The notes beneath the pieces are model-generated. The model worked only from the letters and a program-made list of their open reading frames with translations, did no database searches and was not told where the DNA came from. A stretch of DNA of 64,000 nt from Eubacteriales bacterium (GTDB lineage Bacteria > Bacillota > Clostridia > Tissierellales > GPF-1), in assembly GCA_030625815.1 (NCBI GenBank), contig DAOUQF010000016.1:1-64000 (forward strand). The letters run 5' to 3'. This document shows positions 1-18,717 of this stretch, in pieces (the stretch's first letter is position 1; the number at the start of each line of letters is the position of its first letter). Both the position numbers and the translations under genes were made by a program.

Positions 1-87
1 TTCAGCCAAAGTGTTTTCTTCCCGAAGGAGTTCCAGCACAATTGCTGCTTTCTCTTCGGGGCTCCATTTTCTTCTTGTATTCTTCAT
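1..87 (-). CDS. IS3-family transposase OrfA, N-terminal 29 residues (partial)
   Basis: ATG at 87 opens a frame beginning MKNTRRKWSPEEKAAIVLEL that runs out of the window. The pattern 'RRKWSPEEKAAIVLELL' is the start of the helix-turn-helix DNA-binding domain of OrfA in IS3-family elements. OrfA binds the element ends and is joined to OrfB (DDE catalytic domain) by programmed frameshifting. Only the beginning is visible, so activity cannot be judged. Position and orientation fit the terminal repeat at 117-136. Confidence 0.7.
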   Translation of the reverse strand, partial: MKNTRRKWSPEEKAAIVLELLREENTLAE

Positions 88-136
88 AGTCTTATTATCT
101 TATTTTCTAGAAGATGTGTCCAACCCTATGTGTACA
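1..136 (-). mobile_element. End of an IS3-family (IS150-like) insertion sequence, cut by the window edge
   Basis: Read on the minus strand the element starts TGTACACATAGGGTTGGACA (136 to 117), which has the TGTAC...GTTGGAC form of IS150-group terminal inverted repeats. An OrfA reading frame starts 49 bases inside this end. The rest of the element lies outside the window, so the other end and the target duplication cannot be seen. The element abuts the 3' end of the reverse transcriptase gene. The family call rests on the repeat form and the OrfA start. Confidence 0.7.
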
Positions 137-138
137 TT

Positions 139-1179
139 TTACTCTTTCCTATACTCTTCAAGTTTGTCTTTATATAAATCGCTCAAATCTTCAAGTTGCT
201 TGTTAACGTCATTTATTTTTTCTGCCAATTCATTTACATTTTCCAAATTATTCGTGTAAATCACTGAGTCATCAACATAATAGAAAGCTTTTCCATCCTC
301 ACCAGCAATGACTTTTTGAAAAATTTCTGCAACTTTTACCATACATATATTTCCAAAAAAATATGCGTGTGGCAAACCTTGTGGAATACCTTTAGTCCAT
401 ACTTCACCATTCAAGAAATCAATCTCATTAGAGTCATAATACATCTTTATGAAATCATCTGACTTCAAATTAATAATTTTGAATACCAATAATTTTGATA
501 ATATTGTTTTGATACACTGGATATCGACAGCATCATACTTTACAGAATACTTGCTCATTATTTCATCATAAATAATTGCAGGATTTATTGAAGGAAAAAA
601 GTTCTTCAAGTCAAGCGTTACCTCGAACTTATATTCCTTCGTCTTGGTATATTTATAGTAGGAGCTTGTAATAATTTCGGTATATTCTTTAAACTGATAT
701 TGCCACGGTTTGAACAAATATTCAGGTCGATCTGATGGAATGTTACCATAAAAATTTGAAGGTAACATTCTAGCAAGTTCCGTCAATTCAATTGTTGTTT
801 CATCTTTATCAATCTCAATTAAAAAGGTATTAAGTAATACAACACTTGCTATCAACGTAATTAAAGATGCAGAATGAAGCGGTCTTGATTCAAGTTGATC
901 AGTTTCTTTATCAACCTTTTTGGGCCTGAAATAAACTTGTGCTTCGAAAAATTTACCATTGATAAGTACATCATCAATTATGACTTTAACATTTTTGATA
1001 GTTTCATCGATGATTTTATGATTAAATGGATCTCTTAGTTTCAGCATCAAAATATAATCATCTTCATTAAGCAAATCCTTTTCAAACACATAACTCTCTA
1101 ATGAATAGATTGCCTTATATATAAAGTCATTTTGAATTATTCTGTTGTAAATAGTGCTATCTCTTATTCCAGTCGCCAT
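139..1179 (-). CDS. Reverse transcriptase of the defence-associated (UG/Abi-like) kind, probably C-terminally short
   Basis: 346 residues. RT core motifs are visible: RPLHSASL near residue 99, the catalytic aspartate in LDLKNFFPSIN (D190), GIPQGLPHA near 264-272 and YVDD at 301-304. The polar residue usual after QGLP is replaced by HA. The long non-RT N-terminus and RPLH block are typical of unknown-group/abortive-infection RTs rather than group II intron RTs; no maturase domain is seen. Only 42 residues follow YVDD, so a normal thumb domain is absent. The TAA stop lies 3 bases before the IS end at 136, so the gene was either short already or was rearranged when the IS arrived. SD GGAGG precedes the ATG and the upstream gene ends 3 bases away, so the two form an operon. 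The exact RT class could not be assigned. Confidence 0.75.
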   Translation of the reverse strand: MATGIRDSTIYNRIIQNDFIYKAIYSLESYVFEKDLLNEDDYILMLKLRDPFNHKIIDETIKNVKVIIDDVLINGKFFEAQVYFRPKKVDKETDQLESRPLHSASLITLIASVVLLNTFLIEIDKDETTIELTELARMLPSNFYGNIPSDRPEYLFKPWQYQFKEYTEIITSSYYKYTKTKEYKFEVTLDLKNFFPSINPAIIYDEIMSKYSVKYDAVDIQCIKTILSKLLVFKIINLKSDDFIKMYYDSNEIDFLNGEVWTKGIPQGLPHAYFFGNICMVKVAEIFQKVIAGEDGKAFYYVDDSVIYTNNLENVNELAEKINDVNKQLEDLSDLYKDKLEEYRKE

Positions 1180-1182
1180 ATA

Positions 1183-1713
1183 CTAAGCCTCCAGTCTATC
1201 TACAAAAGATTTAACAGCATCAATTGCGAATTTTTTCAGTTTTTCATTATCTTCTGATGTCAAATAGTCTGAAAACGCACTTCCCTGACCATTGCTAAAC
1301 TGGCATTTCACATAAGTTTTTTTTGTGTCGATAGAGTTGAGCTTTGGCGTTTCGCTAATCATTCTTTTCCATTTACCAGTACTCCCTTTAGAAACATTGT
1401 CAAATCTCAATTCCCAAGTTTCATCGATTTGAATGTTTAACCACCACTCAACATTTTCCGCAATTTTACATTTTTGAATTTCTTCCAAGATTTTTTCGCG
1501 AAATTCTACTTTTGAATTGTACTTATCAACATTTCTCCAAAATCCAGGAATCATGTCTTTTAAATATGTTTCATTGTACTTATAGTCTGGGTTAGTCATA
1601 TATACATAAGTTGCGAACAAATCAAGCAACTCAGTTTTTTGTGGCGTTTTCTTGTGCTTACTCAGTTCTGTTAATTTATTAAGACACTTTAATCTGTAAT
1701 CTTTATCTCCCAT
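1183..1713 (-). CDS. Hypothetical protein paired with the reverse transcriptase
   Basis: 176 residues, not recognised. It is a soluble, lysine-rich, mixed-charge protein with no signal peptide or membrane segment. A tryptophan-rich middle (VEWWLNIQ, ETWELRF, KWKRM) suggests a compact beta-containing domain. GAGGTG lies 6 bases before the ATG. The stop is followed after 3 bases by the RT start, so the pair is almost certainly cotranscribed and may act together. By analogy with two-gene RT defence systems it could be an accessory factor, but nothing in the sequence proves that. Confidence 0.6.
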   Translation of the reverse strand: MGDKDYRLKCLNKLTELSKHKKTPQKTELLDLFATYVYMTNPDYKYNETYLKDMIPGFWRNVDKYNSKVEFREKILEEIQKCKIAENVEWWLNIQIDETWELRFDNVSKGSTGKWKRMISETPKLNSIDTKKTYVKCQFSNGQGSAFSDYLTSEDNEKLKKFAIDAVKSFVDRLEA

Positions 1714-1738
1714 AAATTCACCTCATTCAACGTACAAT

Positions 1739-1990
1739 CTATCCCAAACAGCCTTTTCCATCTTGAGATACGTGATACCATTCATCAACATCTCTTTCAC
1801 AATTCACAGTCCGCAGTCTTACGAATTCACCTTCAAGAACATGAATATCCATCATCAAGCCATAATCTCTGTAATAAATTCTTTTCTATTTCGCAAATCA
1901 TTTCTATACTATAAATTCAAAACAACATATCAATGCTTCAACGGGGGCATTTACTACTTCGTAAATCTGTTCCAAAAAATCGCTTAACCA
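1739..1990 (-). pseudogene. Decayed coding remnant upstream of the RT operon
   Basis: The 394-base gap 1714-2107 has no intact gene. On the minus strand ATG 1855 to TAG 1739 encodes 38 residues containing LEGEFVRLRTVNCERDVDEW, which looks like real protein, possibly the start of a GNAT-type acetyltransferase. Further upstream other frames give coding-like scraps (QIYEVVNAPVEALI) broken by stops. No ribosome binding site precedes the 38-residue frame. The same gap could carry a noncoding RNA, as in some RT defence systems, but no clear structure was found. Confidence 0.35.
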
Positions 1991-2107
1991 TACATTTTCA
2001 AAAATTGAGAATCATTGAAAAAACACCGTAAACTAACATGTTTCGATATGTTTTTGGCTGTTTTACCCGATATTTTAATAAATGCATCTGAGACAATTTT
2101 CAAATAT

Positions 2108-2590
2108 TTATTCCTCCACTAATTGAAGATGTCTCTTCAGATCAACCTTCCTTAGAAAACTTTCCTCTTCAGTTACCCGTTCTCTTTCTTTAAAAATCGC
2201 ATTAACAATTTCAGCATTTATACCTATCCCTTCAAGCAAACCAGCTTCAAACCAATCATAGAAATGTTCAACGTCTTCATCCTCAGCTTTTTTCAGAAAA
2301 TCATAAAACATATTTAGATCACTAATATCGAACTCATCAGCATAATACTTTTTAAATGTATCAATAGGGTCAAAGAATTTATCAAACTCTTCATAGATCT
2401 TTGTTTTTATATGATTAATGCTACTTGTTGCATATTGATATCCATCTAGCGGTAATCTTTTTTCTTCATGTAATTCATCGCGATAATTAGTAATTTCGAC
2501 TAAAAATTGCATGTATGCCTTTTGCAAGTCAAGCGGAAAATGTCTCCCATCCTCTTCTACAAAGTCAATAAAATATTTATCTAATTTCAT
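2108..2590 (-). CDS. Hypothetical acidic helical protein
   Basis: 160 residues, not recognised. It is predicted mainly helical and acidic, with FYDWFEAGLLEGIG in the middle and a charged C-terminus. It lacks a signal peptide, membrane segment or zinc motif. A near-perfect AAAGGAGGT precedes the ATG by 8 bases, so it is a genuinely translated gene. It reads in the same direction as the RT pair but is separated by the decayed gap. It sits in accessory DNA between mobile-element remains, so a defence or immunity role is possible but unproven. Confidence 0.6.
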   Translation of the reverse strand: MKLDKYFIDFVEEDGRHFPLDLQKAYMQFLVEITNYRDELHEEKRLPLDGYQYATSSINHIKTKIYEEFDKFFDPIDTFKKYYADEFDISDLNMFYDFLKKAEDEDVEHFYDWFEAGLLEGIGINAEIVNAIFKERERVTEEESFLRKVDLKRHLQLVEE

Positions 2591-3261
2591 ATACTCATAC
2601 CTCCTTTAAGTTTTCATTTTGCGATCCTTTAGTTTTTAATAAAGCCATAACAATTGATATTTGAATTCTTTAACATAGTTTTTATAGCAATTTTAAAAAT
2701 ATTTGCACCAACTCTCTTCTATTTTTCTACACTTATCAATGCTTCTCTCTTGAGTTCCTTACAGTATATTTTTGAACATGACCCTTTCTAGATGATTTTG
2801 CATTATCAGTATAATCTTCTTCAAAATTTAAAATACAAAAATCTTGGATAATCTGGAGTACTTTCCCTACCTAATCCGATTCAGGTTCCCATTGCATCTA
2901 AAACATAATTATAGGTATTCCTTTATTCTTTAAATGATGCTTCGCACATATGTTGTGACAAGCCTTTGATTGAACTGAAGAACTCAAATAACGAGCATTT
3001 AAGAAGCATTTAGAACCTAGTCAGATTTGAAGGAACATAATATCAGATCAACTGAGGACGATAAATCGGATCGTATGGAATTTTGAATCGGTATTTGCAA
3101 ATGTCTACTTTTATATTTGAATGAACAATAATACTATATGAAGGTTGATTGATATAGGACGTAAATGGAGTGAATTCGAAAAAACAAAAAAATGAGCGAC
3201 TTAACATCAACCTCGGTAAAAAGAATTGCGAAAAATCATCAATCCGAGGAGAAAATACCAA
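2591..3261. other. 671 bases without an intact gene; decayed coding on the minus strand
   Basis: From about 2985 down to 2733 the minus strand reads like decayed protein: SKACHNICAKHHLKNKGIP, then QWEPESD, a stop, and LQIIQDFCILNFEEDYTDN, a stretch with scattered stops. The CHNIC..HH pattern hints at an HNH-like or zinc-ribbon nuclease remnant. From 3000 to 3261 is the AT-rich leader of the broken IS256-like element. No RNA gene was recognised. Confidence 0.35.
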
Positions 3262-4010
3262 ATGACTCAGATAAATGTTCGCGTAAATTCTGAAATCTTA
3301 CGCGTACTTCTTACATCTAACGGCAAAGATGAAGCTTTTGCCAAGCTTTCAGAATGTCTTCTAACCAAGTCTTAAATGCCCAGACGATTGAACTAGTAGG
3401 AGCTGAACGCTATGAATGATCTGAAGATCTTTACGATTACCGAAATAGTTTTCGAATGCGTCCAATAACGACTCGTGTTGGAACAATTGAATTACAATAA
3501 AAAGTCGTGGACTTACAGGGGTTGACCTTGTCGTCTCTGGTAATCGTGGCAGTCTTGTCGCTGCTATGAAAAAGCAGTTTCACAACGTTTTGTTGCAACG
3601 ATGCCAAACTAATTTCTAGCGGAATGTTCTCGATGAAACACCAATAAACTGCAACCGGAAATCAATCAATACTTGAAGGACATTCAACCTACTCCAAAAT
3701 TGAAATCGCCCGATCAATTCGGGATGAATTACTTGAAACCTATACTGGTTCAGCACCAAAAGCAACGGATGTGTTGGAGAAAGGATTCGATAACGTGATA
3801 GCCGTGATGAGCCTGCTTATGAACTATCGCAAACATTTTCAAACCAGTAACAGTATTGAAAGGCTAAACCAAGAGGTTCATCGCAGACAACGGGTAATTC
3901 TGATCTTTCAGAATGAATCATCCCTTCTTCGTTTAATCGGAGCACTTTTGGTTGAGCAAGATGGGAAATGGTCGTCCTGCAAGAAGTACCTCTAGATGGA
4001 GGAATAATAC
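3262..4010 (+). pseudogene. Broken IS256-family (Mutator-type) transposase
   Basis: ATG 3262, preceded by GAGGAG, starts MTQINVRVNSEILRVLLTSN, followed by DEAFAKL, the usual start of IS256 transposases. The frame breaks at 3373-3375 and continues with NAQTIELVGAERYE and RNSFRMRPITTRVGTIELQ. The sequence then jumps to LTGVDLVVSGNRGSLVAAMK and ends with SIERLNQEVHRRQRV and SLLRLIGALLVEQD. About 125 residues in the middle, covering part of the DDE catalytic core, are deleted and there are several stops. The element is dead; its ends were not located precisely, though the right end is probably near 4080-4110. Confidence 0.8.
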
Positions 4011-4124
4011 CTATTTCGATCAACTCATCGAATCACTGCTGTTGCCTAATTGAATAACCGAGGGAAAGTACACACTTTATCCGACTTGACTTTAGAGTCA
4101 TTTTGTTTTCTGTTTACAAAATAA

Positions 4125-5186
4125 CTAGAAATATATAACTTCTTCTTTACTAACTATCTTGATTGTATTAATTAATGACATAACTGAAATTAGACACAAC
4201 GAAGCATCATTTTTTGTCGCAGTTCTTTTATGTGTTAAGTAGTTTGCTAATGCAAGAGTAGACTTAACATTTCTTCGCAGCAATTCGTTTTTTCCACCTC
4301 CAAGTTCATTAGCAATAAAAGCTTCTAGCATTCTATTCGCATCTGTTTTACTTGGTTCAATAGTATCTAATCCTTTATGGATATCAGGTTTGTAAACCTC
4401 TTGTGCAAGTGAAATTATTGATTCTCTTGATAGTAGTCCGATAGTTTGAAATTGTTCTTCATTAGTAGCTTCATTAATACGCTTTCTTAGTTCTGTTACT
4501 GAGCGATCAACTCGTTCCCACCCAGTGGGTTCATATGGATGACTCGTTCCTTGTCTATCAGGAGAAGAGTTAATAACATTTAGCATATTCGAATACATAT
4601 CATTGATAAAGATACGACGTGACTGATAAGATGTTAAATCGCCAGCACTCCACTTTCCATACCATTTCCATAAATCATCATATGGATTAGGATTTTCTAT
4701 AATTAATGATTTAAAGATATCTGAAAGTTTGTAATAAATATTCTTATACTCATCATTTACAGTTTGAATTTTTGGTCCATTTGTTGCGACTGAAATCATC
4801 AATGATTTTATATTATCAATTAATTTTATTAAATCTGATTTCATAATTGATACATCAATTGCTCCCCAGTTGATAGAGTTTTGCATATTCGGTTTTATTA
4901 CCAAGTTAGAAAAAACATTATTTTCATCATCACGAATCAAAAATGAAAACTCATCAAGTATGGATTTTTCATATTCCTCTAATTTATCTTCAATCTCGGA
5001 ATAAAGATAAATATCTAAACTAACCGTTATGGTGTAAATATCTATACCGCCGTTCCAATTGTCATAGTCAGTTATTTCTGCAGATACCTTACTTGATTGA
5101 AGAATATTTGAGTATAATTTGTTTTTCTTATCAAGTAAGGCTGTAACCGTATTAACTAAAACCTCAAATTCGGTATTTAAGCTCAA
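4125..5186 (-). CDS. Abortive-infection-like protein with a HEPN-like C-terminus
   Basis: 353 residues. The start is TTG, overlapping the TGA of the upstream decayed frame (TTGA), with GGAAG 9 bases before it, so translation was coupled. Residues about 230-345 contain RVDRSVTELRKRINEA, QTIGLLSRESIISLAQEVY and LALANYLTHKRTATKNDASL. That block recurs in phage-defence proteins related to the AbiJ N-terminal families (family match from memory). The ANYLTHKR segment is helical and histidine-containing, as in HEPN domains, but a strict RxxxxxH is not clear. The N-terminal 200 residues are unrecognised. It is the last gene of the leftward defence operon. The role is inferred from context and this block. 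Confidence 0.6.
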   Translation of the reverse strand: MSLNTEFEVLVNTVTALLDKKNKLYSNILQSSKVSAEITDYDNWNGGIDIYTITVSLDIYLYSEIEDKLEEYEKSILDEFSFLIRDDENNVFSNLVIKPNMQNSINWGAIDVSIMKSDLIKLIDNIKSLMISVATNGPKIQTVNDEYKNIYYKLSDIFKSLIIENPNPYDDLWKWYGKWSAGDLTSYQSRRIFINDMYSNMLNVINSSPDRQGTSHPYEPTGWERVDRSVTELRKRINEATNEEQFQTIGLLSRESIISLAQEVYKPDIHKGLDTIEPSKTDANRMLEAFIANELGGGKNELLRRNVKSTLALANYLTHKRTATKNDASLCLISVMSLINTIKIVSKEEVIYF

Positions 5187-5290
5187 ATGTAATCACTTCC
5201 TTTCAGCAGTTTTAAAGCTTTTTCTCCAAGGTTATCAATGAAAAATCCTTCAAATTCACAACCCAATGCTTTTGCAATTTCAGTTTATCA
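5183..5290 (-). pseudogene. Decayed 3' end of a small gene translationally coupled to the abortive-infection-like gene
   Basis: Minus-strand codons ending at TGA 5185-5183 read TEIAKALGCEFEGFFIDNL then GEKALKLLKGSDYI. Just upstream, another frame reads VYDGLDKL, so a frameshift has probably split YDGLDKLTEIAKALGCEF. That string resembles the C-terminal half of a small XRE-type helix-turn-helix regulator. No intact start remains and the upstream part is missing. The TTGA overlap with the next gene shows it was once a full operon member. Confidence 0.4.
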
Positions 5291-5296
5291 AGACCA

Positions 5297-6457
5297 TCAT
5301 ATACTTTGATCAGGAAAATCAAGCTTCCGGAATAAATTATAAGGTGGTCTCACATCTAGGCAATTTTTATATTCCAAACTATCCGGAGCAAGCATCGTGT
5401 TATGCTCTAATCTCGGAAAATCACCGAGGAGTCTAGTATTAAAAGCTTGTTTCTGATACTCCGATAATCTTTCCCAAAATAAGGGCGCAAACACCACATT
5501 CTCCGAGTATTCAGGGATCAAATTATTGAATAGCAGTTTAATTTCACGTACTGACATCGTGTTTAATTTGGACTTTAATGACTCGAAAAATTCATCATCT
5601 TCTTTCAACCAACTATAAAGAATATATGACTTATCTCTTTGTGGTAGTACTGTTACAAAATTCATTTTTAATCGTTGTTCATCAAATTCAATCATACTTT
5701 TCACATTTAGCGGTTTTTTATCAAAGTCATATAATGGCGAACATCCAAATGCTGTAGCAATGGGAACTCTATAATCAAACTCAACAACGTATGTACACAA
5801 AGCTGAATAATTTTCACTTAATAACGCCTCATTAAAAATCGTCTCATATGCTCTCATATCCTTTTCAGCTAATTGATAATTCCTATATGTACTGACGAAA
5901 AATTCATTTTCCAATCCAGAAGGAATTTTGCGTATCGTTTGTTGAAAAGATTTGAATGCTACCTTTTTTTTATAATACTCTAGTGCGAAAATTCTATAAG
6001 CGAAAAGAAAATGTTGTTCGTTTGTTTTCGAATACTCAATAGTTTCGATAGGCTTAAAAACCTCTCTATCATGGTAAGCACAAAATCCCGTAAATGTTGT
6101 TGCTTGATTTTTGCCTTTGGTTCTGTAATCGATTTTCAATCCATTTTCGCCGACCCCAGGTTCAATTATTATTACTTCACTGTCTTTTGACAAAAGTGAT
6201 AATACACCATTATTTTGAATTGAATGAGCATTTATTATTTTCTTATGACATTCATCCTTATTTGGGTGCATGCATGCACTGAATTTATTCCGCTTCAGCG
6301 TATTAATGATATAAGCATTCATACGATGCTCATTTCCCATGGATTTACTAATCTCAGTAACTTTATCTTTCCTGTTTTTGCAGCATTTCTGATATTGTAA
6401 CCCGCTTCCACATGGACAATTTTCTTTATCGCTAATCATATTACTACAAAATAGCAT
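5297..6457 (-). CDS. SEC-C motif protein with HNH-like zinc residues, defence operon member
   Basis: 386 residues from ATG 6457, which has AGGGGTG 6 bases upstream; a TTG at 6511 overlaps the helicase stop but lacks a binding site, so 6457 is preferred. A SEC-C zinc motif (CPCGSGLQYQKCC) lies near residues 15-27. It is followed by CMHPNKDEC, INAHSIQ and FTGFCAYHDREVF, a second set of Cys/His residues spaced like a treble-clef or HNH-type fold. The C-terminal half is unrecognised. SEC-C motifs mediate metal-dependent protein contacts in many unrelated proteins. It follows the helicase closely, which suggests it works with the OLD/UvrD pair, perhaps as nuclease, sensor or adaptor. Confidence 0.65.
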   Translation of the reverse strand: MLFCSNMISDKENCPCGSGLQYQKCCKNRKDKVTEISKSMGNEHRMNAYIINTLKRNKFSACMHPNKDECHKKIINAHSIQNNGVLSLLSKDSEVIIIEPGVGENGLKIDYRTKGKNQATTFTGFCAYHDREVFKPIETIEYSKTNEQHFLFAYRIFALEYYKKKVAFKSFQQTIRKIPSGLENEFFVSTYRNYQLAEKDMRAYETIFNEALLSENYSALCTYVVEFDYRVPIATAFGCSPLYDFDKKPLNVKSMIEFDEQRLKMNFVTVLPQRDKSYILYSWLKEDDEFFESLKSKLNTMSVREIKLLFNNLIPEYSENVVFAPLFWERLSEYQKQAFNTRLLGDFPRLEHNTMLAPDSLEYKNCLDVRPPYNLFRKLDFPDQSI

Positions 6458-6507
6458 TTGAACACCCCTATCTATTTTCTCAGATATACAATCACTACTA
6501 GTCCTTA

Positions 6508-8376
6508 TCAAATCGAAAGATTATTTAACACTCTTACTTCTTCAGTATTAAACCATCCGCTAGTCACTATATTTTCTTTTGCTTCTTCTGGGTTAGATGT
6601 ATAAAGCACAATCGCTAGACTTTTTTCAGCACGAGAACAACCCACGTAAAAAAGCCTTTTGGTTCTCTCTATTGTAGTTTCTTTACCTTCTTTTTCGTTT
6701 CTTATATCCGTGTCACTTCTTTCCTTTATGCTAAACAATTTCTCATATGAAAACATAAATCCACGCGCTTCGCTATCATTAATTATTAACATAACTCTAG
6801 GATATTCAAGACCTTTAACCCCTTGATGAGTAGCAAATCCAGCTTCTTCATTCATATATTTAGTATATTTTTCAACTTGGGTAATTTCAAGATTCAAGAC
6901 TTTTTCGAGTGCCTCAAAATCATTATCAATCTCTAGTTCATCATTTTGGTATTCTTTTTGTTCATCTTGTAATTCAAGTACTATTTCAAGACTATCCGGT
7001 AACTGTATTGCATCTCTTTCCTTAATGATACGTAATAAGTCAAAACCATTCGGTGCATGAGCTTCAGTCCAAGCATTTGACAATGCCTCTACGCTCTCTT
7101 TAACATATTGAATACGATTAACGTTTAGATCTTCTTTCCCTTCATTAAATTGCTTGAAGTACTTTTTAGCCAACTTTGCTAGTTCATATTTTTCATCATT
7201 TTTATAGGCTCCTACTAAGGGGAGCACTTGCTCACCAAAAAACTTCGCTTCGACTACTTTGCCCTCAGTTACTTTGTTCTTATATTTGTTACTACTATGT
7301 AAATGTGAGTAAAATTCACCAAACCCTAGTCTTTCCGCAGCCATTTGATGCTCTAAAATTAACGACTGAACTGAATTTATCCACCCATCATCAGATGTAA
7401 GTGAGTGCATTTCACTACATATCAATTTTTCTACATCTATTTTATTTATACTTGAAGAACATAGAAAAATACGTATAACCCCTTCTTCATTACGGTCATT
7501 AGGATACTGTACCAGACCATCAACGTCTTCACGAAGTTTGTTTAATGTTCTAACAATCCTTTTCGGGCATCGATAATTCATTTGTTTCATAGGACTCTTC
7601 CAGCCATGTAAAACCTTGTTTAAATCATGCTTCCCATCCGAATAAATCCTCTGCATCATATCACCAAAAAGACCAATGGAAATTCGGTCACTATTCGATT
7701 CCTGTAATTTAAGAATAGCCTCCATTACATGCTTATTTGTATCCTGACATTCATCAATGAGCAGCATCGGATACATCCTAATTAAAATCCTTTGCATGAG
7801 GGGCTCTTCAAGGAATTTCACAAATATCTTAAGTACTTGCGAATGATTTAACGAATTTTTTGAAGTGTTATCTCCATCAGGACTATAGATAAATTTCTTT
7901 ATTGAATCTAAATTCATTAACTTCTTGCTCTTATTTTTAAGTTTCAACTCTCTTTCTATATATGTTTTCGTTGTTGTGTTATGTGCTTTTACTTGCTTTT
8001 TTTGTAATTCATCGATGTCATTTTCAAGTTCTATTCGCACATAATTCTTAATATCTCTCTGGAAGCTACATATAAGTCGCCATGAAAAACTATGAATTGT
8101 GGATACAGAAAATAAATCACTATTTTTTAATCGGCTTATTATTTCATTACATGCGGCATTTGTATATGTTATAACTGCAATTTTTCTTCCATATAAATAT
8201 AGTTCTTCTCCATATCTCTTTTCAACTTCCTCCAAAACCTCAACTAAGGTGCGGGTCTTCCCAGATCCTGCACCGGCTAACATGAAAAAGCTTTGTGGGT
8301 TTTTCATGTTAAGGCAGCTCAATATTTCATTATTAACTTCATTATCTTTATTCTGAATTTCTTGAATTCTGGCCAT
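6508..8376 (-). CDS. UvrD/Rep-like superfamily 1 helicase (GajB-like)
   Basis: 622 residues. Walker A is GAGSGKT (35-41), motif Ia lies in AVITYTNAACNEI, and Walker B with the DEAD-like box is LLIDECQD (205-212). Later motifs are MNYRCP, QGVKGLEYPRVM near 520 and RLFYVGCSRAEK near 585, the order of SF1A UvrD/PcrA helicases. The start shares one base with the OLD-nuclease stop (TAATG), showing coupled translation. OLD nuclease plus UvrD helicase is the composition of the Gabija anti-phage system, in which GajB helps GajA attack phage DNA. This protein is longer than the 494-residue reference GajB. Catalytic motifs look intact. Confidence 0.85.
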   Translation of the reverse strand: MARIQEIQNKDNEVNNEILSCLNMKNPQSFFMLAGAGSGKTRTLVEVLEEVEKRYGEELYLYGRKIAVITYTNAACNEIISRLKNSDLFSVSTIHSFSWRLICSFQRDIKNYVRIELENDIDELQKKQVKAHNTTTKTYIERELKLKNKSKKLMNLDSIKKFIYSPDGDNTSKNSLNHSQVLKIFVKFLEEPLMQRILIRMYPMLLIDECQDTNKHVMEAILKLQESNSDRISIGLFGDMMQRIYSDGKHDLNKVLHGWKSPMKQMNYRCPKRIVRTLNKLREDVDGLVQYPNDRNEEGVIRIFLCSSSINKIDVEKLICSEMHSLTSDDGWINSVQSLILEHQMAAERLGFGEFYSHLHSSNKYKNKVTEGKVVEAKFFGEQVLPLVGAYKNDEKYELAKLAKKYFKQFNEGKEDLNVNRIQYVKESVEALSNAWTEAHAPNGFDLLRIIKERDAIQLPDSLEIVLELQDEQKEYQNDELEIDNDFEALEKVLNLEITQVEKYTKYMNEEAGFATHQGVKGLEYPRVMLIINDSEARGFMFSYEKLFSIKERSDTDIRNEKEGKETTIERTKRLFYVGCSRAEKSLAIVLYTSNPEEAKENIVTSGWFNTEEVRVLNNLSI

Positions 8377-10592
8377 TACTCTTTATCTCCATTCTCGATG
8401 TCAAATGAAAAATTATTATTCCGCTCAGTGAGCTTGCTTTCTAACCATGTTAATCCATCTTCAATATATGTTGGAATCTTAAGCTCATCAATATTCTTTG
8501 CTAACAAAACATCCAGAGAAAATTCGGCTTTCTTAAAATTTTTATCAGAAAAAAGATTGTAAATATCTTTGTTTAAACTTTTCATTCCTTTCGAATTGTC
8601 TATCGTTTTTTTTACTTTCTTAGTTGGTCCAAAGCTTTGAAGTGTAGAAGTAAAGAACGTTGTATTTTCCAATACTAGAGCATCCTCAAAAGTACTTGGA
8701 ATCACTTTTGAACTTCTAGAAAAAGGACCTTTCACCATAAGCTCTTTTTGGTAAGTAATAAATACGTTATTCGCTAATCGTCCATCATTATTGGTTATAT
8801 CCATAAGATCATCTATTGAACTTTTTTGAGGTGCCCACTTTACAAGAGTACTGTTTTTCGTCATATATTCTTTCCCTTTTTCAGGAAACACTTTCTTAAG
8901 TTTGCTTTCATTCGTTTTTTTACATGGGTCTAAATCACTAATCACAAGTGTATATATACCTAATTTATCAATGAGAGGTTTCAATCTAAAAGCATGACTT
9001 CCTCCAATTTCCAATATTGTTAAATATGCACGATTCAACATTTCGCTTCTTCCGACAAACTCCGGTAATAGCATTCGTTCCGCACTACCTTCAACTAATA
9101 TTACAGCATCGGCAAAAAACAAATCACAGTGTGTGGTTTTAATATATCTGCTCACAAATCTGGTCGTCTCATCTTCACTTCCGAATACATCAGCTAGATT
9201 AATGATTTCTGATTTTGGAGATTTAGTATCGCTGTCACATTCCAACCTTCTAAAATATCTTAGTTTCGAGAAGTCTAGTTCTTCAATGATATAACTTGAA
9301 TGAGTGCTGACTAACAACTGTGTCGAAAACCGTGCGTCACCTTTCAATAATTCGTGATTTCTTAATACTTCATACGCTTTTTTAATGAACACCTGTTGAA
9401 CTTGTGTATGAAGATGCGCTTCAGGTTCTTCGATGATCACGAGGTGTAAAGGTTGAATAACCGGTTTAGCCGTATTCAATTTATTTTTTTTACCAGCACT
9501 CATCCATTCATCTCTATAGCTCATAAGCATAAAAACCATTGAAATTAAGTTCTGATATCCTAATCCTGTATAGTCTTCAGGAAGTCGTGTATGTTTTGCA
9601 TCATCCTTAGTAGTTGAGTATTGAACTGCAGAAGAATGATCTAGACCATCTGTATAACTCATTTTTGTAGATATATGGATTTGGGGATCCGTAAAACCTG
9701 GATAACCTAATGAACGAAGCTCACTGATCGGCTTGCTAAAACTGCATTTCAACTTATTGTCAAATCTAGTTTCTGCTTTCCAAACTTCTTCAATAAACTC
9801 AAGGTCACTTTCTTCTAGTAATTCTTCTTGTGGGCATAGCTGATTATCAAAATAGTCACGTAATTGCTTTGATAAGTTACCGCTAGATATGGTAGCAGAA
9901 GTCTCATCGTTTGAATCAGAAAATCCTCTTTGTGCATTTATAACATCAATTTTCACTAGATCTTTTAGCGGATTAGTGTCTAACACTTCAAGGTTTTTAT
10001 TTATAGGTACAACCTGATTATCATAGAATGTTGGATCTAATGTGTAATAAGACAGATTGAAGTATGAATTCATTTTTCGTTTCAGAAAATGGCACATATC
10101 ATGTGGCCAAAGATATAACTCACTCTTATTCCCTTTAAGTTTCTTTGTGTTTTCGATGATTTGTTTATAATTAGAGAATAATTTATCTAGCTTTTGAGGT
10201 TCAAATGAAAATCTAAGACCCAAAGTCCCTCCAGTCCAATCAAGTGTAGGTATTAATGAAATTACATGATGCAACTCATTCTCAGTGACTTGAAACCATA
10301 AATCTAACGTAGGGCATATATTAACCCATTTATCATAAAATTCCTCCGGATCATAAACGTTTTTCTGCTCAATGTATTCACCAATAGCATTAATCTCATC
10401 CCAATTTGAGATAGACCAATCATATAAAACGAGTTTCTTACTATCTTTATGAAAGAATTTCCTTAAAGCCTCTATAGCAGACGTTTTGCCACTGTTATTT
10501 GCTCCTACCAATAATGTGGTTTCCTCATTTAAGAGAACTTTTACATTTTCCAATTTCCTGAAATTTCTAATGTCAATTCTTTTAATTTTCAT
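8376..10592 (-). CDS. OLD-family ATPase/TOPRIM nuclease (GajA-like)
   Basis: 738 residues. It begins MKIKRIDIRNFRKLENVKVL, the usual start of OLD/SMC-like ATPases. Walker A is GANNSGKT (30-37). A GLGYQNLI block near 343-350, Walker B VIIEEPEAHLH (385-394) and H-loop VSTHSS (428-433) complete the ABC-type ATPase. The C-terminal TOPRIM nuclease has AVILVEGSAERMLLPEF with E501 and SDLD (552-555). It heads the coupled pair with the helicase, as in Gabija. It is about 160 residues longer than the reference GajA (578), with extra sequence between the Walker motifs and after the DLD motif, so it may be a divergent branch. AGGGG lies before the ATG. Confidence 0.85.
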   Translation of the reverse strand: MKIKRIDIRNFRKLENVKVLLNEETTLLVGANNSGKTSAIEALRKFFHKDSKKLVLYDWSISNWDEINAIGEYIEQKNVYDPEEFYDKWVNICPTLDLWFQVTENELHHVISLIPTLDWTGGTLGLRFSFEPQKLDKLFSNYKQIIENTKKLKGNKSELYLWPHDMCHFLKRKMNSYFNLSYYTLDPTFYDNQVVPINKNLEVLDTNPLKDLVKIDVINAQRGFSDSNDETSATISSGNLSKQLRDYFDNQLCPQEELLEESDLEFIEEVWKAETRFDNKLKCSFSKPISELRSLGYPGFTDPQIHISTKMSYTDGLDHSSAVQYSTTKDDAKHTRLPEDYTGLGYQNLISMVFMLMSYRDEWMSAGKKNKLNTAKPVIQPLHLVIIEEPEAHLHTQVQQVFIKKAYEVLRNHELLKGDARFSTQLLVSTHSSYIIEELDFSKLRYFRRLECDSDTKSPKSEIINLADVFGSEDETTRFVSRYIKTTHCDLFFADAVILVEGSAERMLLPEFVGRSEMLNRAYLTILEIGGSHAFRLKPLIDKLGIYTLVISDLDPCKKTNESKLKKVFPEKGKEYMTKNSTLVKWAPQKSSIDDLMDITNNDGRLANNVFITYQKELMVKGPFSRSSKVIPSTFEDALVLENTTFFTSTLQSFGPTKKVKKTIDNSKGMKSLNKDIYNLFSDKNFKKAEFSLDVLLAKNIDELKIPTYIEDGLTWLESKLTERNNNFSFDIENGDKE

Positions 10593-10687
10593 GATATACC
10601 CCTTCTACAAGCACTTAACGGCTCTATAAAAATTCTTATTTTAGAAACCAAATCCCATTAAAATTTCAATACGTTTTATTTACCAAT

Positions 10688-11749
10688 TTACACCGTCAAT
10701 TCAACCATATCAGATAATTCTTCTAGTGATAATCCAGAATTTCGGTGAATCATCCTATGGCAATTTGCACATAACATCGCGATATCTTCAACTTTAGTTT
10801 TGTCACCTTCTTTTAACTCAGAAACAGGAATCACATGATGGCCTTCGATATATCCTTCTCCGAGTTCTCCGTACACTTTAGAAAAATCAAACCCGCATAC
10901 CTCACAATAAATGCTTCCATCATGATTTTGCTTAAACCGAGCTTTTGCCTTTTCAACGACCTTAGGATTTCGCTCTCTAATCTTATGATTTCGATAAGCA
11001 ATCTGTCCTTCTGCAAAATCATTTTCACCTTCATCCACATATTCTTTGTCAGCAAATATTGGAGTAAAAACAAAATGATTCAAATCTCCCCCATACTCGA
11101 TTGAAAATTCACCTCTTACATCCGGAAAAACTTTTTGAAACTCATTTTTCAATTCTCTTCTAAACCTTATACTTTGCAGCTCTATCTCTTTATTTTTCTG
11201 TCCTTCATAGCGATATTCTGCATCAAATATCTTATTGTTAAAGAGAACCTTTATCTTTCTAGCCGCTCCCCTTTTAACAAAATATTTTGAGCCTGGTGGA
11301 TTAAGAATCGAATGATACCTTTTTTCAATTCGCACACCATCAGTAAACTGCGAATTACCAACTCTTTTTATTATCTTTGGCGAATCAATCGATAGGACAA
11401 AAGATTCATACCGATCATTTACATGCTGATCCCGATAATATCTTAGTAATGCCATTTTTATCTCTTTAAAATCTGAAGCTGTAGACTCTTCAAATAAAGT
11501 AATACTCTCCATTATCTCTAGCCCAATAAAAATCCCTTTATGATCGTTCACTAGCCCTAAATGATGAAGTATTCCCATCGCAATATATCCGCGACTAACA
11601 TCTGGATCCTCCGAAATGACATACTCATCCAACCATCTATGGGAACGCCCCTCAAATAAATAATGGTATACAACACTATCTCTCATACGTTCTGAACATG
11701 AATCATATTCACGCTTTCGCACACTTGGCTCTAACGCAGAAATATTCAA
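10688..11749 (-). CDS. HNH endonuclease heading the defence operon
   Basis: 353 residues from a TTG start with AGGAGG 5 bases upstream. The C-terminal HNH domain (about 280-337) has CEVCGFDF, EGHHVIPVSEL, VEDIAMLCANCHRMIH: two CxxC zinc pairs and the catalytic HH followed by N and H. The first 250 residues are unrecognised and may bind DNA or sense a target. The domain order (unknown N-terminus plus McrA-like HNH) is common in type IV restriction-like enzymes. The OLD gene follows after 95 bases in the same direction, so this may be part of the same system or an independent defence gene beside it. Confidence 0.75.
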   Translation of the reverse strand: MNISALEPSVRKREYDSCSERMRDSVVYHYLFEGRSHRWLDEYVISEDPDVSRGYIAMGILHHLGLVNDHKGIFIGLEIMESITLFEESTASDFKEIKMALLRYYRDQHVNDRYESFVLSIDSPKIIKRVGNSQFTDGVRIEKRYHSILNPPGSKYFVKRGAARKIKVLFNNKIFDAEYRYEGQKNKEIELQSIRFRRELKNEFQKVFPDVRGEFSIEYGGDLNHFVFTPIFADKEYVDEGENDFAEGQIAYRNHKIRERNPKVVEKAKARFKQNHDGSIYCEVCGFDFSKVYGELGEGYIEGHHVIPVSELKEGDKTKVEDIAMLCANCHRMIHRNSGLSLEELSDMVELTV

Positions 11750-12810: not shown

Positions 12811-13362
12811 TCAAAATCTAAAGTTTCTCAACGTCCTATCAATATACTCTTGCTCCACTCCAATATACAGTAAAGTATGCGTTTCTCTTGAATGACCATA
12901 AATCTTCATCAACATTGGCAACGCGTGCCTTTCTCCATACTGTACATAGAAATGATAGCCGAATGTTTTCCGCAATGAATGCGCAGTCAAGTGAACATTA
13001 TATTTATCCCCAACATCTTCAAGAATCTGATTAACCCTTTGCCTTGATATTGGCCGATTATAATTCTCCCTGGAACGTATGAGATAATCTTCGTCATCTT
13101 TTCCAGTAATATAGATCGCGATCTCCCGTTGCAATTCCGGATTAATTATAATCTTCCGTACATTCCCAGTCTTTTGCTCAGTCACTATAAAATGATCTTG
13201 CCCCCGAACATCAGAAACTTTCAATTTTAAAATATCACTAATCCTCAACCCTGAATAAATTCCCAACATAAAAAGGATGTAATCCCTTTCGTTTTGTTTC
13301 CTCAAATACCCTGCTATATCATAAATTAATTGCTTATCACGAATTGGATTTGCCGCTGCCAT
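12811..13362 (-). CDS. Small tyrosine recombinase, catalytic domain only
   Basis: 183 residues. Catalytic residues of the tyrosine recombinase family are visible: R in GIYSGLRISDILKLK (near 55), HSLRKTFGYH (HxxR), GHSRETHTLLYI (H and the nucleophilic Y). The usual N-terminal SAM-like core-binding domain is absent. Short recombinases like this often lie near the terminase region of Firmicutes prophages, in addition to the main integrase; their job is not well defined. GAGGTG lies 5 bases before the ATG. A perfect inverted repeat with a 6-base centre lies 67 bases upstream and may be its site or operator. Confidence 0.8.
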   Translation of the reverse strand: MAAANPIRDKQLIYDIAGYLRKQNERDYILFMLGIYSGLRISDILKLKVSDVRGQDHFIVTEQKTGNVRKIIINPELQREIAIYITGKDDEDYLIRSRENYNRPISRQRVNQILEDVGDKYNVHLTAHSLRKTFGYHFYVQYGERHALPMLMKIYGHSRETHTLLYIGVEQEYIDRTLRNFRF

Positions 13363-13429
13363 ATTTCACCTCACATAAGTATCTCTACAACTTCTCTGAA
13401 TTTTACATATTTCGTACAATATCCTCGAT

Positions 13430-13455
13430 TTACTAAGTACAATCTTACTTAGTAA
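13430..13455. repeat. Perfect 10-6-10 inverted repeat before the small recombinase
   Basis: TTACTAAGTA (13430-13439), six bases, then TACTTAGTAA (13446-13455). Ten-base arms around a six-base centre match the geometry of dif-type recombination core sites used by tyrosine recombinases. It could instead be an operator or a hairpin; there is no T-run, so it is not a terminator. Confidence 0.55.
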
Positions 13456-13493
13456 TGTAATTACACCTCGAATATTTTAATTGATCAAACCAT

Positions 13494-14411
13494 TTATGGT
13501 AACTCATTCCAATCTATCACCGGCTGTCCATCAATTTTCCATAAGGGTTCAAGATTCTGTGAACTACCAATATAAAAATTAATCCCACCATCATGTTTGA
13601 AAGAAAGATTTGTTGCTACAATACCATCTTCACGTCTCGAATAAGTAGCTTTACAACCATTAGAAAAATGTACATTGAAACCGTATACACCATTATCACC
13701 TACCAATAATTCAAAAACTCGATATTCAGGCCATTTGTGATAACGCTTCCCCTTGGAAAGTCGAATAAGCCATAATCTATGCAACCTCATAAATTGACTA
13801 TAGAAATCAAAACATGACATTATTATCTCATGCAATTCTTCAATCGGTATCTGTTGGGATATCCGATTTTCAGTGTACCTAAAAAACTCATCAGTTAATA
13901 CATAATCAGAATGCGTAAATGAGTTTCTTATGTTATCCGAATAAATATGTCCAATAGCTACTTTGAGATCAAATTCATTACACTTTTCAGCTTGTTCATT
14001 AATATATCTAAATTTCGTTTTTGCACTCGGCGGGACATATATAGATGGCTTTTTCTTCTTATTATTAGTCCTTCCAAGATGTCTTAATGGCTGAATTTTA
14101 TACCCCCCACCATCAATACAACTTAATAAGTTCGTCATTATTTCATGAGGTGCTGTCATTTCTATCAGTTGGCAATACATCAATAATGCGATTCTAATTT
14201 GAGAAATTGCCGACCTTTCAGTCCTTGTTTTCTCTAAGATCCAGTTATAATCCTCAAGAGCTTTTCTTGACTCTTCAAAAGGATCCCAGTTTGCATCACT
14301 CATCCCACCTGCTCTTAAAAGAGAACATAATGTATCGAATGGGTTTACATTATAAGCCTTTTCAATAAGTGTATTAAATAGATCATAGTATTTACTCTTT
14401 TCAAGCTCCAT
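13494..14411 (-). CDS. HEPN-like protein, putative toxin or RNase of a two-gene cassette
   Basis: 305 residues, not recognised as a named family. Residues 159-170 read DNIRNSFTHSDY, a clear RNxxxH motif (R162, H167) in a helical context, the hallmark of HEPN nucleases found in abortive-infection and toxin-antitoxin systems. The C-terminal 80 residues look beta-rich (YRVFELLVGDNGVYGFNV). GAGGTGATGAA precedes the ATG and the nuclease-like gene upstream ends 18 bases away, so they are an operon. The likely role is RNA cleavage or sensing in phage defence; this is inferred from the motif and from its place between two packaging-like elements. Confidence 0.65.
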   Translation of the reverse strand: MELEKSKYYDLFNTLIEKAYNVNPFDTLCSLLRAGGMSDANWDPFEESRKALEDYNWILEKTRTERSAISQIRIALLMYCQLIEMTAPHEIMTNLLSCIDGGGYKIQPLRHLGRTNNKKKKPSIYVPPSAKTKFRYINEQAEKCNEFDLKVAIGHIYSDNIRNSFTHSDYVLTDEFFRYTENRISQQIPIEELHEIIMSCFDFYSQFMRLHRLWLIRLSKGKRYHKWPEYRVFELLVGDNGVYGFNVHFSNGCKATYSRREDGIVATNLSFKHDGGINFYIGSSQNLEPLWKIDGQPVIDWNELP

Positions 14412-14429
14412 TTCATCACCTCGTCTCCA

Positions 14430-16016
14430 TTACAACTCTGTTAAAATGCCTCGAGCTTCCTCAGCAAATTTCATATAGTTATCATCTATCCACTGCAAGG
14501 CATTATCATTTATTCCTTTTGATTCAAGAAAATTCACTAGCGGCGAAAGGTTTTTTCTATCGCAAAATTCTTCTAAAAAATCAAATAATTCTACACCTTT
14601 TTTTGTAACGCCACATAGATATTCAAATTCTTCGATACTCAAATTTATATGGCCCTTCAATTTTTCTCCAAGCTTATTGGAAATTAAATCGTCAACATAT
14701 TTTTGGATTTCCGATACTCTAGGCACATTTAACAAAGTTACAGATAGTACATAGATCTCCTCGACTCCATCGAATATCGTCCGCTCTCTACTTTCCAATA
14801 TCGCTTCATGAGCATCTATAGCTTGGTTAATCGGAGATATATATACTTTCTTAATTCCTTCCATCAGTTTTGCAAGATCATGGGTATAATATATTTCAAA
14901 ATTCGGTCTCTTAGATTTCGCTTCAATTATCAACAATTTCTTGCCAGAACGAATATATGCATCGGACGAATCTCTTTTTGTTTTTCCAAATTTAAACTCA
15001 GGGATAAATGTATATTTAGTATTTTTTGCTTCTGCCACAGCATGTGCTGTCAATCTATCAACATATTTCTCATAGGGACTTCCTAAAAATGTCAATATAC
15101 TCTTATCCTCCTCGGGATATACTTCGCGAATCCTATAGAATAATCCCTCAAAATATTGATTAATTACAAAATCCTCATGAAGTGATAAGATCCATCCATC
15201 ACCAATATCGATAAACGGAATTGAAAGAAATAAAGAATAATCCCACGTATTTTCTATCGTCGATTGGCACCAATCAGTAAAATCATAAGCACATTGAGCT
15301 TTTGATCTTATTAAAGCAATAAACTCTTGCTTTATTTTCATTTTTGACGAGAATTTGTCAATGTTAATAATCGGAATCTTCCCAGGCCTTTCAGTAAAAT
15401 GTAATTCTACCATTGGAAACATCATAGCGAGATACTCATTAATCGAATGACTATATACCGTTTTATAATCCTCATAAAAATCGATATACTCTTTTTCGTT
15501 ATAAAGGTCTTTTTGCCTAGAAAGTTCAATGAACATTTGATAGGATCGTGCAAGATCGTTCTTAATATTACGCTTGCTATTTATTGCTACATTTTTAAAC
15601 ATATAACTTTCCGCTGAATCAATATTGTCAGAGGGTAAGTAGTCTGCTAGCATTATTTGAGTGATAATTGTTTTATTGATAAGTTCTTCGCTTATTTCAA
15701 CGCAAAAAAGTTCATTTATGATTCTTCCGTAAGCAATTATCCATTTGGCAAAATATAGCAACCCTTGCTTTGAATATAACTCAAATTCAAGAAATTTATT
15801 TATTACACTTTTGCTATATGGCTTTCCCCTCAAGTATTTAAGTTTATGTGCAGGTCCCAGTTCAAGATTATTAAGCAGATACCCTATTGTAATCAACCAG
15901 CTTCGTTGATCTTCGCTTCTAATACTTTTTATAATCTGTTCGCGCCTGTATATACCCGTTTCGAATATCGTGTCATAAGTTGCAATAGTCATTCTCTTTA
16001 TATTATTCGCCTTCAT
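14430..16016 (-). CDS. PD-(D/E)XK nuclease-like protein, first gene of the cassette
   Basis: 528 residues, no named family recognised. Residues 314-367 show a PD-(D/E)XK arrangement: E316 in GSPYEKYVDRL, then FIPEFKFGKTKRDSSDAYI with D349/D352, then LLIIEAKSKR with E365 and K367. The N-terminal 300 residues are helical with several aromatics and could be a regulatory or DNA-binding part; the last 100 residues are also helical. The HEPN-like gene follows after 18 bases. GGGAG precedes the ATG by about 10 bases. The active-site residues appear intact. The substrate is unknown. Confidence 0.7.
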   Translation of the reverse strand: MKANNIKRMTIATYDTIFETGIYRREQIIKSIRSEDQRSWLITIGYLLNNLELGPAHKLKYLRGKPYSKSVINKFLEFELYSKQGLLYFAKWIIAYGRIINELFCVEISEELINKTIITQIMLADYLPSDNIDSAESYMFKNVAINSKRNIKNDLARSYQMFIELSRQKDLYNEKEYIDFYEDYKTVYSHSINEYLAMMFPMVELHFTERPGKIPIINIDKFSSKMKIKQEFIALIRSKAQCAYDFTDWCQSTIENTWDYSLFLSIPFIDIGDGWILSLHEDFVINQYFEGLFYRIREVYPEEDKSILTFLGSPYEKYVDRLTAHAVAEAKNTKYTFIPEFKFGKTKRDSSDAYIRSGKKLLIIEAKSKRPNFEIYYTHDLAKLMEGIKKVYISPINQAIDAHEAILESRERTIFDGVEEIYVLSVTLLNVPRVSEIQKYVDDLISNKLGEKLKGHINLSIEEFEYLCGVTKKGVELFDFLEEFCDRKNLSPLVNFLESKGINDNALQWIDDNYMKFAEEARGILTEL

Positions 16017-16250
16017 AAAAAATCAAACTCCCTTAATTTTTTCTAGATTATACATTGAGAACCGTTTGTTTTTTTAATATTATTTACAACAACAACTAAA
16101 CTCTTATATATAGTTTAATTATTGCAAAGACAAATTACAAGACATCCCGATGATTCACATAATAAATTTACCGCCAGCATTTTGAACCTCAGGATCCCCA
16201 ATCATTTTTATAGAACCAATTCAATGTTTTTTCATACGCACCACCCTAAT

Positions 16251-16343
16251 CCCCCCCCTTAATCAAATTTCACGGGTGTGTGAAAAACACCACCCGCTCG
16301 GTCTCCTCGCTTTGGCCAAAAGTTTGAACACCCCCCTACCCCC
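16251..16343 (-). repeat. Packaging-site-like G-tract element, copy B
   Basis: On the minus strand it reads GGGGGTAGGGGGGTGTTCAAA, then a middle with GACCG, a GGGTGGTG block and a final run of eight G. Copy A at 12176-12267 has the same order at almost the same spacing (93 versus 92 bases). The two copies bracket the nuclease/HEPN/recombinase cassette. Confidence 0.5.
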
Positions 16344-16374
16344 TTGCTGCCAGGCCCGGCTATGATCATCCGGA

Positions 16375-16464
16375 TCAGTCTTTCCAGTAATCATTTTGAG
16401 GCATGATGCCAGGGTATTCTTCCGAACCCAGGGTGCAATGCAACCACGGCTTATTGATCTCCAT
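16375..16464 (-). pseudogene. Coding remnant of an unknown phage gene
   Basis: The minus strand encodes MEINKPWLHCTLGSEEYPGI and ends MPQNDYWKD, a protein-like 29-residue string with no ribosome binding site. Upstream in another frame is NKWQECDIDEIGVIRA, which suggests one gene split by a frameshift. The function is unknown. Confidence 0.35.
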
Positions 16465-16757
16465 TAGATACACATACAAACTCAAGCGCGAATCACTCCG
16501 ATCTCGTCTATATCACACTCCTGCCACTTATTGACTATCTGACTTGGCCACTATCCTCACCGATGCACCAGGTATGCCTAAGCATAAGACCACGATGCAT
16601 GGCCATAATTCACTCGATCATTCTTCCCGTTTCCATTGCTCCATATCCCATGAGAAATGAATAGCCAATGATCAATCAAGTCTCCAATTTGCTTCAAAAA
16701 ACATGCAAAGGGGGGATCACTACCAAACTCAACAAAAACACCTTAAAATAGCCTTTT

Positions 16758-16790
16758 GAGTTAAACATATCTTATTATTGTGTTTAACTC
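16758..16790. repeat. Perfect 10-bp inverted repeat
   Basis: GAGTTAAACA (16758-16767), a 13-base AT-rich spacer, then TGTTTAACTC (16781-16790). Neither strand has a following T-run, so it is not an intrinsic terminator. It may be an operator or a replication or packaging signal of the element. Confidence 0.5.
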
Positions 16791-16881
16791 GTAAAACCCA
16801 CTTCACTCCTTGTATTCATCAGGGATTGAGGCACTTCGCCAAAACCCAGTTACACATTCCCTAAATATGGTGAACTGAGTT

Positions 16882-17004
16882 TCAAAACATCCAAAAATCA
16901 CTCGCTTTTAGACTGTTTCTTGCAAATATCTCACAAAGCTTTTCATGCTGAATTCTACCTTTGAAATAAGAGATGCCCCAATCCAGGGCACCCTCACTCT
17001 CCAT
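16882..17004 (-). CDS. Possible small phage gene, 40 residues
   Basis: ATG 17004 to TGA 16882 encodes MESEGALDWGISYFKGRIQH and a further LCEIFARNSLKASDFWMF-like tail. The composition looks like protein and it lies just downstream of the 60-residue phage gene in the same direction. No good ribosome binding site is visible, so it may be a remnant. Confidence 0.35.
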   Translation of the reverse strand: MESEGALDWGISYFKGRIQHEKLCEIFARNSLKASDFWMF

Positions 17005-17033
17005 ATCAATTCTAAATATCTCGTTGCAGTTCC

Positions 17034-17216
17034 CTAAGAAAGCAAATCCCAATTATCTCTTACTTCTGCAAGATCATAGGTTAGCCTCGGCTTCATCCGT
17101 ATCCTTTTGAAATCCGGATCCTGATAATCAAGAACAATTTCCTCTGGAGTAATTCCCGCTGCAACTAACGCTTTCTTGAGAACTTGTAAACGTGTATTTT
17201 CACTCTTCCTTTTCAT
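17034..17216 (-). CDS. Small hypothetical phage protein
   Basis: 60 residues from ATG 17216, which shares one base with the stop of the antirepressor gene (TGATG). GGAGG lies 7 bases upstream, which favours this ATG over a TTG one codon earlier. The protein is charged and soluble (TPEEIVLDYQDPDFKRIRMK), with no recognised family. Tight coupling suggests a function linked to the antirepressor. Confidence 0.6.
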   Translation of the reverse strand: MKRKSENTRLQVLKKALVAAGITPEEIVLDYQDPDFKRIRMKPRLTYDLAEVRDNWDLLS

Positions 17217-17980: not shown

Positions 17981-18021
17981 AATACCCCTCCTCTCAAATT
18001 CCATGAATACAAACTCTCTTT

Positions 18022-18459: not shown

Positions 18460-18540
18460 CCGAACATCTCCCTTCGTAATTCTATAAACTCTCCTGACAT
18501 AATTACTCCATTGAATCCGCCGGCATGTCCGGTAGGACCG

Positions 18541-18717
18541 CTATATTCTCTTTCTCTCTTTTAGCAACAGATTGCAATTCAAGCTATTCTCGTGAACACT
18601 TATCGAAATGTCGAAGTGCTCCAATCCGTCCTGGGCCTCGATCATCGATAAGGATACCTGAATATACTCAATTATCTGTTCCTCAAGCTTCTGTTTCTTT
18701 TCTATCTCTCTTGGCAT
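18541..18717 (-). CDS. Small coiled-coil phage protein, 58 residues
   Basis: ATG 18717 to TAG 18541 encodes MPREIEKKQKLEEQIIEYIQ followed by VSLSMIEAQDGLEHFDISIS. It fills the 306-base gap between two phage genes, reads the same way and looks like genuine protein. A GGTGAGGT string just before the ATG is a weak, closely spaced binding site. In the other frames after the stop, coding-like sequence (GHAGGFNGVIMSGEFIELRR) continues to the next gene, so a frameshift may have shortened the original protein. Confidence 0.55.
   Translation of the reverse strand: MPREIEKKQKLEEQIIEYIQVSLSMIEAQDGLEHFDISISVHENSLNCNLLLKERKRI

Follow-up and report, generated by a model that had tools for sequence, protein, structure and literature searches.

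The left end of the window raises the question why a reverse transcriptase (RT) gene stops there shortly after its catalytic motif, next to an insertion sequence (IS), and what kind of system the complete gene would have formed. The window is the whole stretch of 64,000 bases that was analysed, namely, bases 1-64000 of contig C56 (68,514 bases), window base 1 being C56 base 1. The RT open reading frame (ORF; 139-1179, minus strand) encodes 346 amino acids. A sequence-only reading of this DNA had described a defence-type RT with intact catalytic residues and 42 residues after YVDD, and both statements hold: the motif-A aspartate D190 is present, YVDD is at residues 301-304 of 346, and 42 residues remain beyond it. 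The PADLOC profile that matched the RT fragment best was RT_UG24 (E 1.8e-111, model positions 2-317 of 1036), followed among the UG profiles by RT_UG6 (E 5.4e-13), and Pfam RVT_1 was found above its cut-off (E 1.4e-9). A group II intron RT was rejected because the NCBIfam group II RT/maturase model gave 23.6 bits against a cut-off of 300, and a retron RT was rejected because the one retron model that appeared among the matches at E<=1, St85, gave 34.1 bits against a cut-off of 235, although the length of the fragment explains part of both low scores. The earlier reading of a defence-type RT is thus supported, the type being UG/Abi. Since the RT matches RT_UG24 (PDLC03762), the gene beside it matches RTas1299 (PDLC03791), and the intron and retron scores are this low, both genes belong to a catalogued group of known or candidate defence-associated RTs, the PADLOC group UG24, and PADLOC labels both models DRT. 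These profile matches establish the family of the RT gene and of its partner. The features are listed in Table 1.

Table 1. Features of the UG24 locus, of its continuation on contig C15 and of the Gabija genes; positions are those of the window unless a contig is named
Feature	Position	Strand	Basis
IS3-type element end and OrfA start	1..141	-	ATG at 87; contig breaks off inside
GAG target duplication (3 bases), one of its two copies	142..144	-	contig ends, codon phase, blastn to L022
RT fragment, N-terminal third of UG24 reverse transcriptase	142..1179	-	PADLOC RT_UG24, RVT_1, motifs
Partner gene, RTas1299 family, first in the two-gene unit	1183..1713	-	PADLOC E 1.1e-12
GajB, Gabija system	6508..8376	-	PADLOC GajB E 6.7e-221
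GajA, Gabija system	8376..10592	-	PADLOC GajA E 1.1e-262
RT remainder	G000:C15:34677-37019	-	matches homologue residues 348-1121; HD-CE E 6e-27
Opposite IS end	C15:37053-37193		near-matching inverted terminus TATAATGTACAC; C15 itself ends at 37193

An uninterrupted homologous locus was sought and three intact RT genes were found. In L007, from a Pelosinus sp. metagenome-assembled genome (MAG), the RT has 1121 residues and matches RT_UG24 over positions 3-1035 of 1036 (E 6.4e-292), and a partner gene of 180 codons lies upstream and overlaps it by 8 bases. In L022 (genome G460) a partner of 176 residues is separated by 3 bases from an RT of 1140 residues, and in L021 (G477) a partner of 196 residues, counted from the ATG used here (209 from an upstream TTG), accompanies an RT of 1109 residues; both of these RTs match RT_UG24 over nearly the whole model. 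None of the three ends at the residue where the frame in the window stops and all continue for roughly 765-795 residues further. When the L007 RT was compared with the genome to which the window belongs, there were two matches only, of which one, on C56, covers its residues 1-343 and the other, on contig C15, its residues 348-1121. The part of the RT that the earlier reading expected beyond the IS is therefore found at the end of C15 in the same genome, and this part matches RT_UG24 with an E value of 3.7e-180. It contains the Pfam HD-CE domain (E 6e-27), as do all of the five sequences that reach this region (L007 1.2e-25, L022 2.4e-26, L021 6.6e-25, and the diverged L024 1.6e-25); five HD-type His/Asp patterns, the choice of which was fitted to these same sequences, are present in the same five. 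It had been stated that the thumb domain is missing. It is absent, but by comparison with the homologues the loss from the RT fragment is larger, about 790 residues including the HD-CE domain, and we infer that the truncated RT is inactive.

The ends of the two contigs bear on how the gene was divided. The C56 end reads ...AAAGAG and then TAAAATGTACAC, the first IS bases, while the C15 end, on the same strand as the C56 end, reads ...GTGTACATTATA and then GAGGCTGAA. The termini at the two ends are near-matching inverted repeats. A second GAG copy stands directly after the IS end on C15, and GAG is a glutamate codon in both frames and in the same phase; a 3-base match is expected by chance 1 time in 64. 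By blastn, the two pieces match L022 at 6212-7800 and 7797-10192 with 82-84% DNA identity, and this overlap of 4 bases on the intact gene (7797-7800) fits a target duplication at the break. The earlier assignment of the element to the IS3 family agrees with bases 1-87 of the minus strand, which encode the start of an OrfA with a match to Pfam HTH_Tnp_1 (E 0.0059) that reached 17.2 bits against a cut-off of 24.1 in a comparison that had 29 residues to work with. The same reading had put the RT stop codon 3 bases before the IS end; an IS-type end is there, but the distance from the stop codon to TGTACAC is 2 bases. The end chosen for the IS is supported by the right IS end, which recurs at C16:1-141 with TTATA included and after which the sequence diverges directly. 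Given the duplicated GAG and the recurrence of the IS end, it is most likely the IS, and not the RT gene, that contributes the stop codon at which the RT fragment ends. The right IS end is presumably the end of OrfB, and a Pfam scan of it gave no match. The C16 region of the same genome that holds the second copy of this end (L013 1-1713) has an AbiEii-type gene nearby (685-1713).

The IS3-type element would thus have inserted after the YVDD motif, duplicating GAG and breaking the RT gene, and we hold with high confidence that the locus is a two-gene UG24-type candidate DRT operon, the RTas1299 partner first and an RT-HD-CE protein of about 1,140 residues second, in which the RT gene is broken by this element. 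Since the assembly shows no IS body and has the left IS end at C56 only, we infer the adjacency of C56 and C15. If recombination between IS copies had separated the two halves, or if the contigs were a mixed assembly, the halves would not be adjacent in the chromosome. The absence of the IS body from the assembly would fit this, as would the right IS end at C16, by which there are at least two copies of that end, and the listed contamination of 3.13%. However, GAG and the codon phase match at both contig ends, the halves overlap by 4 bases on the intact L022, each half has a single match in the genome, and the two are similarly diverged from L022 (85.0% and 83.5% DNA identity), and such a separation is therefore unlikely. 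It is less likely still that the split leaves two working proteins, an RT part and an HD part, in a regulated or reversible state and not in decay: open frames and motifs are kept in both halves, but the RT fragment has nothing beyond the palm motif plus 42 residues, and the UG24 locus L023 has lost most of its RT gene in what looks like plain decay. That the RT is naturally short and the IS merely landed alongside is scarcely credible, because, although the frame does stop 42 residues past YVDD, the intact homologues run on, the residues flanking the junction are almost identical in L022, and the continuation exists on C15 in the same genome, the stop codon being most likely that of the IS. 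The earlier reading had left the choice between a short RT and one inactivated by the insertion; with the remainder on C15 and three uninterrupted homologues, inactivation by the insertion is supported and the natural short RT is rejected. Because the IS divides the RT gene between C56 and C15, the locus is, as judged from these comparisons, a broken member of an already catalogued and little-studied DRT group.

Neither the partner gene nor either half of the RT gene has further stops, and that both RT halves are without further damage suggests that the break is recent. The dN/dS values (NG86) against L022 were 0.154 for the partner, 0.118 for the N-terminal part of the RT and 0.102 for the C-terminal part. 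As an estimate from a sequence pair, a dN/dS of about 0.1 is a record of past constraint along both lineages and leaves the insertion undated.

The coupling of the RT to a gene of 176 codons, also claimed earlier, is confirmed in that the partner encodes 176 amino acids, its ORF lies 3 bases upstream of the RT ORF on the same minus strand, and it matches RTas1299. The earlier proposal to see whether such a gene stands beside uninterrupted homologues can be answered as well, since a small gene on the same strand lies directly upstream of the RT in all five loci with DNA there (the window, L007, L021, L022 and L023); L024, the sixth UG24 locus, was left out of this count because its contig ends inside the RT gene. 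On direct scanning, the sole PADLOC match of each of the five was RTas1299, with E values of 1.1e-12 (window), 8.6e-15 (L007), 3.5e-12 (L022), 3.1e-4 (L021) and 0.018 (L023). When genomes were searched with RTas1299 at E<=0.001, the window's own genome and G460 were the only ones listed (2/298), and the two weaker partners of L021 and L023 were thus missed. These two were picked by position and are 20% and 18% identical, respectively, to the protein in the window, and a profile built from the three close partners matched them with E values of 3.5e-6 (L021) and 6.4e-4 (L023), above all 2,000 shuffled sequences. On these scores L023 is the weakest case for an RTas1299 partner. A structure model of the window's partner had a mean pLDDT of 65.5 and gave no match at E<=0.001 in a fold search of the PDB, and a PDB sequence search with the partner family alignment gave 5 weak matches, the best with an E value of 0.82.

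Compared with the PADLOC UG24 group, the RT gene here is broken by an IS, whereas the three intact relatives have one RT gene of about 1,100-1,140 codons, and the partners of two relatives match RTas1299 weakly. In L023 (G648, 9100-10619) the partner has 178 residues and the RT breaks off after 289 residues when counted from the ATG used, or after 305 when counted from a TTG further upstream. After the cut another frame resembles, by eye, the extreme C-terminus of the family, and an internal deletion in this RT is therefore likely. L024 (G405, 3092-6049) encodes a diverged, HD-CE-containing RT that runs off the contig and has at least 985 residues; its best PADLOC profile was RT_UG24 (E 4.7e-53), followed by RT_UG36 and RT_UG19, and on this order of profiles it is possibly a separate subgroup. 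RT_UG24 is rarely found. At E<=1e-20 it was present in 1/398 genomes across the phylum, which was the window's own genome, and at E<=1e-10 in 4/249 genomes of the order, own genome included, in 5/298 relatives, in 4/297 relatives of G477 and in 1/8 genomes of the family of G460, in search sets that overlap and that each include their centre genome. Viral contigs scanned with single proteins gave no relatives, and phage records had no match to the intact RT, to window 1-1713 or to the partner. In plasmid records the partner matched nothing, and the single match of the intact RT, at 25.6% identity, was to the HD region of a Pantoea protein. A PDB sequence search with the RT family alignment gave 7 weak matches, the best of which was a sensor kinase (E 0.0046); one RT was among them (E 0.031).

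From the domain content and the operon structure a working order for the intact system can be proposed. On phage infection the RT domain would make a DNA product, damage would come from hydrolysis of nucleotides or nucleic acid by the fused HD-CE domain, and the small protein encoded upstream would serve as a dedicated cofactor or regulator. A coupling of RT and HD in any form is conceivable, although we lean against it. The more specific proposal, which we offer as a doubtful one, is that UG24 is a sensor and effector in a single chain, in which DNA made by the RT and held by or attached to the protein switches HD-CE hydrolysis on while the partner acts as a safety catch. If this were true, an enzyme that makes DNA would at the same time, through its own second domain, remove nucleotides or nucleic acid by depletion or destruction and so stop phage replication; the gene would be costly to its carriers, which would account for its disruption by an IS here and, in a second genome, for what appears to be an internal deletion. 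An AlphaFold model of the whole RT, for which the alignment held two sequences, had a mean pLDDT of 31.5 and was unusable, and it was too poor to show an alpha-helical repeat domain after the RT. Among the titles listed in searches of the literature there was no defence test of UG24, and none that fitted on HD domains with DRTs or on HD-CE with defence; Mestre 2022, reportedly the paper that defined the UG groups, was outside the search.

As described in parts of two papers (PMC13174585, PMC12632851), Class 1 UG RTs have an alpha-helical repeat domain and carry out template-independent synthesis, whereas Class 2 UG RTs copy noncoding RNAs. As the flanks gave no conserved DNA, UG24 may need no separate noncoding RNA for its DNA synthesis. 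The alternative to protein-primed or template-free synthesis, that UG24 works like the Class 2 DRTs and copies a noncoding RNA, appears rather unlikely but has to be taken seriously, because the RT fragments of the window and of G648 have weak secondary matches (E 5.8e-10 and 5.1e-8, respectively) to PADLOC RT_UG17, the RT of DRT10. Against it, the DNA that the window's locus shares with L022 (blastn) extends only 14 bases ahead of the partner gene and 10 bases past the RT gene, the 500-base flanks of five loci had no consistent similarity, and an Rfam scan of window 1-6000 gave no match, though an RNA inside the genes would escape these comparisons. Among the 16 pairs of 500-base flanks compared, taken from five upstream and four downstream flanks, 15 had scores reached by at least 12 of 100 shuffles. 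The score of the remaining pair, the upstream flanks of L007 and L021, was reached by 0 of 100, with the similarity at different distances from the gene, and given 16 pairs it was treated as a chance similarity.

Three known systems can be set beside UG24. DRT10, as given in part of PMC12632851, consists of a UG17 RT, a SLATT partner and a noncoding RNA, and resembles UG24 in having an RT with a tightly linked small partner gene. It differs in that no conserved flanking noncoding RNA was seen in the UG24 loci here, and the PADLOC, Pfam and NCBIfam profile matches of the window's partner included no SLATT match. AbiA, an Abi RT, resembles UG24 in that its RT carries at the C-terminus a kind of domain often met in defence proteins, as stated in part of PMC11077055. 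In UG24 that domain is HD-CE and not HEPN, and a small partner is encoded by a gene of its own. Since the HEPN domain of AbiA has, according to the same text, no enzymatic activity, although polymerase activity and dimer formation depend on it, the HD-CE domain of UG24 could by this closest analogy be structural rather than hydrolytic. The available text of PMC8934634 mentions UG24 once, among several class labels considered for an RT. The third is a protein in the Pelosinus MAG itself (L007 1186-4008), which shares the HD-CE domain with UG24 (E 6.5e-37) and differs in that the domain is joined to an HSP90-like ATPase and no RT domain was reported. Being a broken copy of a catalogued group, the locus itself changes little. 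It points to a rarely found DRT that has RT and HD-CE in one chain, and the intact relatives together with the defined two-gene unit could bear on the unexplained link between DNA synthesis and defence.

The surroundings of the locus look like a defence island, which, going by its gene content, may border a prophage. GajB and GajA match their PADLOC models over nearly their full length and are flanked by an ORF with a SEC-C domain (5297-6511) and one with an HNH domain (10688-11749). Beyond the RT half on C15, genes for a Pycsar-type cyclase, PycC, and for PycTM were found (L014 7531-8844, same genome). Window 3771-3995 holds a remnant of a Mutator-family transposase (Pfam Transposase_mut positions 311-377 of 379), and phage-type genes, namely, an integrase piece, a BRO-N/ANT antirepressor and a Lin1244-type protein, lie at 12811-20324. 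In L007 the HD-CE and HSP90-like ATPase protein (940 residues) and a Schlafen AlbA_2 protein are upstream of the UG24 operon (1186-5149), a DNA methylase/Eco47II-type protein is in the vicinity of L021, and a phage-type integrase is in the vicinity of L022.
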